Source: a candidate division WOR-3 bacterium (GTDB lineage Bacteria; Hydrothermota; Tepidihabitantia; SM23-42; JAOAFX01). Taken from it: DNA of 32,175 bases. The notes beneath the pieces are model-generated. The model ran no database searches. It had not been told where the DNA came from and saw only the letters and a list, made by a program, of their open reading frames with translations. The stretch covers positions 1-32,175 of the forward strand of contig JBDRVV010000029.1 of assembly GCA_039802005.1 (NCBI GenBank), written 5' to 3'. The position numbers and the translations under genes are program-made. Positions 64 through 1,319 of the stretch are shown here, in pieces; within the stretch, counting starts at the first letter, position 1; every line of letters starts with the position of its first letter.

Positions 64-525
64 CTATTTACCTCCATTTTCTGATTCTCCAAACTTGAGA
101 AGGCTTTCGCCTTCTTCAATTTCCTCTTTTTTGAAGGGCCTTCGACTTACTGAAACTTCCCCTCCCTTGAGGGGAGGGGATAAAGGGGAGGGTGACAATT
201 CACTGATTATCACTTCCATCACCCCATCAATATTTCTCAATACATCGTTATTCCAAAATCTTAATACCATGTATCCTTGTGCCCGAAGCCACCTATCCCT
301 TATTTTATCACCCCTGCTCTCAAAATGCCCACTGCCATCAACCTCAATAATCAATTTTTTCTCAAAACAGACAAAATCCACAATATAGCGTCCTATCATC
401 TGCTGTCTTCGAAATTTTACACCTAATTGTTTATCTCGTATCTTATACCATAATCTTTTTTCTGCTAAGGTCATATTACCTCTTAGGCGTTTTAATATTA
501 TTTTGTTTTGTGGGGTTAGTTTCAT
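64..525 (-). CDS. DUF559 domain protein (Vsr/restriction-endonuclease-like fold)
   Basis: A 153-residue protein. Residues 1-110 match the DUF559 family: an N-terminal helical part (LTPQNKIILKRLRGNMTLAE), then GVKFRRQQMIGRYIVDF with D50, and IIEVDG with E61 and D63, the D...ExD layout of PD-(D/E)XK-like nucleases, then GYMVLRFWNNDVLRN. The family is related to very-short-patch-repair nucleases; its biological job is not established. Residues 111-153 look foreign to the domain: they translate a G/C-rich palindromic repeat (SPSPLSPPLKGGE) and a further hairpin at 98-115, so the reading frame runs through repeat DNA. The 5' end is also bordered by palindromic repeats (544-650). A single gene with no same-strand partner. 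The family call is confident; nuclease activity is inferred from the motif. Confidence 0.85.
   Translation of the reverse strand: MKLTPQNKIILKRLRGNMTLAEKRLWYKIRDKQLGVKFRRQQMIGRYIVDFVCFEKKLIIEVDGSGHFESRGDKIRDRWLRAQGYMVLRFWNNDVLRNIDGVMEVIISELSPSPLSPPLKGGEVSVSRRPFKKEEIEEGESLLKFGESENGGK
158..180. repeat. G/C-rich palindrome inside the 3' end of the DUF559 gene
   Basis: CCCCTCCC (159-166) and GGGAGGGG (172-179) form perfect 8-bp arms around TTGAG, with one more A/T pair outside. A G-rich tail (GATAAAGGGGAGGG) follows. The hairpin resembles the copies on the other side of the gene at 544-650 (an AGGGGGAGG type), suggesting one interspersed repeat family. A second hairpin, AGAAGGC/GCCTTCT with a TTTC loop, lies at 98-115 inside the same gene tail. 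Confidence 0.8.
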
Positions 526-543
526 TCTTCACCCCCACCTTAA

Positions 544-650
544 TCCTCCCCCCTCAAGGGGGAGGAAAAGCGAAGGAGAACTCCCCTCAAGGGGGAGGAA
601 AAGCGAAGAAACCCTGCCATCAAGGGGGAGGAAATGCAAAAGAGCTCAAT
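544..650. repeat. Palindrome followed by three 33-bp tandem repeats
   Basis: A perfect palindrome lies at 544-566: TCCTCCCCC and GGGGGAGGA around CTCAA. Its right arm plus tail (core TCAAGGGGGAGG, then AAAAGCGAAG) recurs with a strict 33-bp period; the core starts at 554, 587 and 620. The third copy is the most diverged (AAATGCAAAAG). The period is a multiple of three, so open frames run through on both strands, but these are repeat translations, not genes. The array begins about 20 bp upstream of the DUF559 start codon. Confidence 0.85.
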
Positions 651-731
651 ATAAAGAAGGAAAGAAGTCAAGAAAATTTTGGCATCAAAAGGAAGCAAGA
701 TAAGAGAGAGTATTTTGTGAAAGTTTGACAT

Positions 732-1319
732 TTATGGTAGAAAGAATTTTAAGCCGAAGCCGTTGACAAAAAATTTTTCGTCTTTGTCAAAAAAACCGTA
801 TTTGTAGATATTGGAACTCGTAAGATAATGATATTGCAGATGGGAAAATAATGCAAGATTATCCAATGGCTTAATCTGGAATTCAAGACCACCGGTAAAA
901 CCAAGGTCTTTTTCATCCATTTTATCACCGGTCGGCAGTGTAATCACCTGGTCGTTAAACAATCCCTGCCACAGATACCAGCCAAAGCCAGTCTTCAGAT
1001 GGAGCTGGAACAAGCCGGTCTTTAAAAATGGCAAAAGATTGTAGGTGATGGTGAATGTCAAAGGTGTGTATTTGTATGCAAAAGGTCCCTGATCAGGCGG
1101 AGCATCATAGCGAACGATCGCACCGCTGAACTCAATCCCAAGTTTAGGAATAATATTCGCCACACCTATCTGGATACCCCACTGGTACTTGCCTTTTGAT
1201 TCCTTTAAGGTATCCTGAAAAAGAAGATAATTTGAATAATTGGGTCCAATGAAGACCTGTCTTGCATCTATTCTGGGATTTAATATCCCGGCAAAGAGCA
1301 AGATTGATATGAAATTCAT
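732..1319 (-). CDS. Putative outer-membrane beta-barrel protein
   Basis: 195 residues with a short hydrophobic N-terminus (MNFISILLFAGIL) that could be a signal peptide. Alternating hydrophobic/polar strands and many aromatics follow, and the C-terminus is strand-like (VNGFGLKFFLP), as in small outer-membrane barrels. There is no recognised catalytic motif. The start codon overlaps the stop of the upstream TetR regulator by 4 bp (ATGA), so the two are co-translated and this gene is almost certainly under that regulator. A role in the surface response to whatever the TetR protein senses is inferred. The specific family is not recognised. Confidence 0.65.
   Translation of the reverse strand: MNFISILLFAGILNPRIDARQVFIGPNYSNYLLFQDTLKESKGKYQWGIQIGVANIIPKLGIEFSGAIVRYDAPPDQGPFAYKYTPLTFTITYNLLPFLKTGLFQLHLKTGFGWYLWQGLFNDQVITLPTGDKMDEKDLGFTGGLEFQIKPLDNLALFSHLQYHYLTSSNIYKYGFFDKDEKFFVNGFGLKFFLP

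Follow-up and report, generated by a model that had tools for sequence, protein, structure and literature searches.

The window, a stretch of 32,175 nucleotides from a candidate division WOR-3 bacterium (assembly GCA_039802005.1, contig JBDRVV010000029.1), has as its first gene a DUF559 nuclease gene that lies between two inverted copies of a hairpin-bearing repeat. The features of the locus are:

64–525, minus strand: DUF559 nuclease gene of 153 amino acids, whose open reading frame reads through the downstream triplex motif
157–195, plus strand: downstream arm, putative triplex motif type B, with a hairpin at 158–180 (CCCCTCCC/GGGAGGGG) and a mirror tail (GGGGAGGG) pointing into the gene
196–495, minus strand: DUF559 domain, predicted Vsr/EDxHD-like PD-(D/E)XK fold
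529–567, minus strand: upstream arm, putative triplex motif type A, with a hairpin at 544–566 (CCTCCCCC/GGGGGAGG) and a mirror tail (GGTGGGGG) pointing to the gene
550–648, plus strand: 33-nt tandem repeat in three copies, grown out of the upstream arm's hairpin

The gene encodes a DUF559 protein, as the first-pass annotation had proposed, with a match to PF04480 at residues 11–110 (E 1.2e-37). It belongs to the compact DUF559 subfamily, scoring 128.6 bits against a curated cut-off of 20.6 over profile positions 7–108 of 109, and residues D50, E61, D63, H67 and D73 (window protein numbering) are intact here and invariant in 30 relatives. The predicted structure has a pLDDT above 90 across most of the DUF559 domain. 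When a profile of 20 DUF559 domains was used as the query, the best match was 3hrl, an endonuclease-like protein of Neisseria, followed by 3r3p (E 3e-4); the same two structures ranked first and second in a Foldseek search with the predicted structure, and Vsr (1vsr, 1cw0) came lower. Judged by these models, the nearest characterised fold appears to be the catalytic domain of the homing endonuclease I-Bth0305I (3r3p), and a cyanobacterial study places a DUF559 gene among the EDxHD homing endonucleases (PMC9403480). The window protein does not contain the HUH tyrosine transposase domain (Y1_Tnp), carrying DUF559 with its predicted Vsr-like fold instead, and models of defence systems gave no meaningful match to the DUF559 unit. 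The last 43 residues had at first been read as translated repeat; this holds for about 13 of them (157–195, ..PSPLSPPLKGGE..), whereas the remainder (64–156) is other sequence.

The palindromes first reported at 158–180 and 544–566 are both present, and each is part of a larger arm. The 39-nt arms at 157–195 and 529–567 are inverted repeats of one another (82%) with their tails facing the gene. Each element of about 39 nt consists of a C-rich/G-rich hairpin and a tail of purines, the mirror image of the G-rich arm, and in both arms the tail mirrors 100% of the purine arm, giving a pyrimidine arm, a purine arm and a third purine stretch joined by short loops. By this sequence pattern we classify the arms as putative intrastrand triplex motifs (TMs), formerly called BoxC or PIT (Holder et al., 2015; PMC4666352). 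Such repeats have been known from E. coli since the 1990s and are found in more than 260 genomes, the E. coli motif has been examined by CD/NMR, and inverted TM pairs in E. coli always combine one type A with one type B (PMC4666352). We use A and B for the upstream and downstream arm by analogy, as the types of Holder et al. rest on the loop sequence. Rfam gave no match above the gathering score near the window DUF559 unit. In a mechanical test, a mirror tail accompanied 69–74% of the hairpins near DUF559 genes, compared with 6% when the flanks were shuffled, and where the hairpin nearest the gene had a one-sided tail, this pointed towards the gene in 136 cases and outwards in 32. Within one genome, an arm resembles its own partner only weakly better than it resembles arms belonging to different units (p 0.02).

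The 33-bp expansion noted upstream of the gene is likewise real, with three 33-nt copies at 550–648. The orthologous array in a related genome, G069, has about six (L313, 2320–2620), and the array behaves like a minisatellite. Elsewhere in the window, at 2111–2257, lies a hairpin repeat whose sequence is of a different type (CCCCC TTTTGTAAA GGGGG). Its four 31-nt copies form a tandem array, and there is no DUF559 gene close to it; the same intergenic stretch holds further short repeats at 2361–2520, of the TTGTAGTGGCAGAG..CTCTGC and GTCGAGCAATCTCGACCACTACA types.

The arrangement recurs far beyond the window. We chose 80 DUF559 loci from named genomes by protein sequence alone, 78 of which were usable; they came from about a dozen phyla, including Pseudomonadota, Thermodesulfobacteriota, Myxococcota, Chloroflexota, Omnitrophota, Chlamydiota, Cyanobacteriota and Melainabacteria, Nitrospirota, Nitrospinota, Bacillota and candidate phyla. 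C-rich hairpins lay within 200 bp on both sides at 60 of the 78 loci, the two-sided bracket being absent from 18, and hairpin density was 5.7 per kb near the gene against 0.125 per kb beyond 500 bp. With this enrichment of about 45-fold, the scatter of unenriched palindromes against which the first-pass annotation had set its suggestion is not the rule. Matched inverted arms (score ≥30) were present at 52 of the 78 loci, all from other genomes, the corresponding figures being 2 of 245 for neighbouring genes and 9 of 1740 for random placements. Within the phylum of the window, the bracket surrounds 40 of the 51 compact DUF559 genes, and retention of the gene without any repeats is again the exception, two of the 51 lacking a hairpin on either side. 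The longer, weakly matching DUF559 subfamily of the phylum showed the bracket in 0 of 19 cases, and of 30 Y1/RAYT loci none had these hairpins close by on its flanks. Downstream of E. coli ycjD there is one clear TM, and on its upstream side a perfect hairpin of a different kind. The association of bracket and gene and the structure of the unit are very likely real, and loci from many phyla strongly support the RAYT-like layout originally suggested, in which inverted hairpins of one family enclose an enzyme gene.

The gene and the repeats also go together at the level of whole genomes. We counted TMs in 147 genomes of the phylum, mostly draft MAGs, with a covariance model of the arms; with no more than 44 candidates scored in any one genome, the counts are minimum values, and the model favours one TM type because it was built from the DUF559 arms of this phylum. 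The window genome has at least 32 TMs. TMs were present in 33 of 35 genomes with compact DUF559 and in 44 of 112 without it, with medians, as lower-bound counts, of 16 and 0 (Fisher odds ratio 25); p-values for this association are only indicative, since related genomes are not independent. Several TM-rich genomes lack DUF559 (G130, G056, G006 and G120), as expected after loss of the gene or from another route. The closed genome G075 has no intact DUF559, and its sole TM match lies directly at a DUF559 remnant. A separate observation concerns a repeated element of G069 with an IS4-type-looking transposase (L282; G069:C51:13700-16500), which carries a TM hairpin just inside one end and whose many copies break the assembly (contig ends L252–L261). 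The window genome has two related copies of that end (G000:C21:17662 and G000:C24:35590), so some of the TMs of that genome probably came with this element, and carriage by other elements counts among the rival readings.

Orthologous loci were compared as the first-pass annotation had recommended, and at five orthologous sites the unit was present or absent among near relatives. The only other DUF559 gene of the window genome (G000:C1) lies between atpG and atpD in the same inverted bracket; atpG and atpD are directly adjacent in two congeneric species and in another species of the family. A site occupied in G059 (L153) has neither gene nor TM in G064 and G062, and at another, occupied in G057 (L149) and G061 (L206), G059 and G060 have other hairpin pairs and no gene. 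In G058 (L154) the gene sits between two TM pairs, where G057 (L204, paired with L154) has one TM pair and no gene. Homing into a TM pair would produce this pattern, and recombinational loss between the flanking pairs would look alike. Inward-facing A-B pairs without a gene, with spacers of 14–35 nt, occur at four sites, and a control with the reversed pattern gave none. To judge from sequence, the orthologous sites, the gene-less pairs and the TM beside the remnant show gain or loss of the unit, two directions that the site comparisons do not distinguish. As for the marks of a classical transposon or MITE, the window unit has inverted arms, and no target-site duplication was recognised at the compared sites. 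The tree of the proteins, built on 104 columns, leaves 70 of 123 inner branches unresolved and is too coarse to show transfer.

G069 has the window unit itself at the orthologous position, behind a TolC-type gene; G068 lacks it. In G069 and G068 (L313 and L312) the TolC-type gene follows an outer-membrane-protein gene, and in the window (650–732) it is missing. As the DUF559 unit comes directly next there, a deletion appears to have ended beside the hairpin array. In E. coli, at least 80% of the ycjD unit region is found in one place in 3362 of 5426 genomes, and ycjD with its TM is polymorphic (L193, L194 vs L187); the boundaries are not clean, because two strains without ycjD have a TetR/efflux pair beside fabI. 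Since inverted TMs usually flank DUF559 genes on both sides, the gene and its repeats have the look of a single unit subject to gain and loss.

The feature is one unit, an inward-facing TM pair, A upstream and B downstream, around a compact DUF559 gene. On balance we take it to be a minimal selfish element, similar to a REPtron or to a free-standing homing endonuclease gene and copied by means of its own nuclease. DUF559 would thereby probably be the mobiliser of the repeats, and the nuclease is a good candidate for the agent that spreads TMs. First, the nuclease, with its Vsr/EDxHD fold, would nick or cut DNA at or near TMs, perhaps when these are extruded as a hairpin or triplex. Repair of the break with a TM-flanked template would then copy the gene into TM sites and spread or convert TMs. 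Finally, gene-less A-B pairs and scattered single TMs would represent deleted or truncated offspring of the unit. That the nuclease cuts TMs, and that this cutting drives copying, is our inference.

Among the alternatives, the one that survives best is that DUF559 is a Vsr-like repair nuclease acting on mismatches, breaks or stalled forks at TMs, and that TMs are tolerated only alongside the nuclease, giving co-inheritance without spreading. Vsr is a relative by fold, Caulobacter VsrA contains a DUF559 domain and has been proposed to be a mismatch-repair nuclease (PMC12907096), and TMs have been tied to genome instability (PMC4666352). However, given that this explanation accounts neither for the place of the gene between inward-facing TMs nor for the joint presence and absence of gene and TMs at orthologous sites, and that TMs persist in genomes without the gene, we regard it as unlikely. 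We find it quite unlikely, too, that the TMs serve as boundaries, blocking read-through or replication, around a horizontally moving gene that enters by other means and whose nuclease has no mobilising role. Hairpins around mobile genes can restrict read-through, and a TM likewise lies just within one end of the IS4-type element of G069. However, TM pairs of the same inward order also exist without a gene, only one DUF559 subfamily has the bracket, and earlier tests of PIT/TM elements, cited in PMC4666352, revealed neither promoter nor terminator activity.

That a RAYT/Y1 (IS200-like) transposase mobilises the repeats, with DUF559 as a passenger, seems very unlikely. Y1_Tnp was found in 87 of the 147 genomes of the phylum, the window genome included, Y1 and TMs show a weak correlation (odds ratio about 4), and elsewhere some RAYT-like genes are flanked by terminal inverted repeats (TIRs) bearing a GGGGWSAS motif (PMC3733652). 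However, DUF559 is a much stronger correlate of TMs, none of the 30 Y1 loci has closely flanking hairpins of this kind, and Y1_Tnp/RAYT matches are absent from several genomes that have units and many TMs (G023, G061, G109 and G111, with DUF559 and at least 13–22 TMs), and on these grounds we reject RAYT as the main mobiliser. Although TMs are intergenic and common in some genomes, the chance that DUF559 genes merely sit in intergenic spaces where G/C-rich palindromes gather anyway is negligible, and we reject it, since all four controls, with neighbouring genes, random placements, the other subfamily and RAYT loci, came out near zero.

The broader claim, that compact DUF559 is a dedicated mobiliser of BoxC/PIT/TM repeats across Bacteria, homing on triplex- or hairpin-forming DNA, seems to us evenly balanced. 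If true, it would provide a function both for these repeats and for the DUF559 family. Even short of that, tying a widespread nuclease family to TM repeats yields a testable role for both, and E. coli K-12, with ycjD and its neighbouring TM, is a possible test system. In a search limited to the open literature, we found neither a link between DUF559 and palindromes or triplex repeats nor any report of Vsr together with repetitive extragenic palindromes.

Among known systems, the arms match BoxC/PIT/TM repeats in having a hairpin with a mirror purine tail, in composition, in the inverted pairing of A with B and in intergenic position. While those are known as orphan repeats with no associated gene reported, here they bracket a nuclease gene; the 2015 study called the origin of TMs unclear and found no mobility activity near them (PMC4666352). 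Vsr and Caulobacter VsrA are relatives by fold, and VsrA contains DUF559; in contrast to Vsr, the unit has no methyltransferase gene, and the fold match is weaker than that to 3r3p. The EDxHD homing endonucleases, represented by I-Bth0305I, are the nearest characterised relatives by both sequence profile and predicted fold, differing in that no intron or intein is involved here and the unit is intergenic and framed by repeats. In layout the unit resembles the REPtrons and TIRtrons (PMC3733652), in which a single small RAYT or TIRYT gene also lies between inverted REPs or TIRs, palindromes of a genome-wide family whose members occur alone or in inverted pairs as well; the DUF559 gene is likewise flanked by inverted copies of a repeat present elsewhere in its genome. 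However, its enzyme is a PD-(D/E)XK, Vsr-like nuclease rather than an HUH tyrosine transposase, and its repeats are polypurine triplex motifs without GTAG, which the RAYT loci of the phylum do not have. The link carries the REP-RAYT idea over to an enzyme unrelated to RAYT and to a putative non-B DNA structure, and, if our reading is true, a partnership of repeat and enzyme built on a Vsr/EDxHD nuclease would stand beside RAYT-REP and transposase-MITE.
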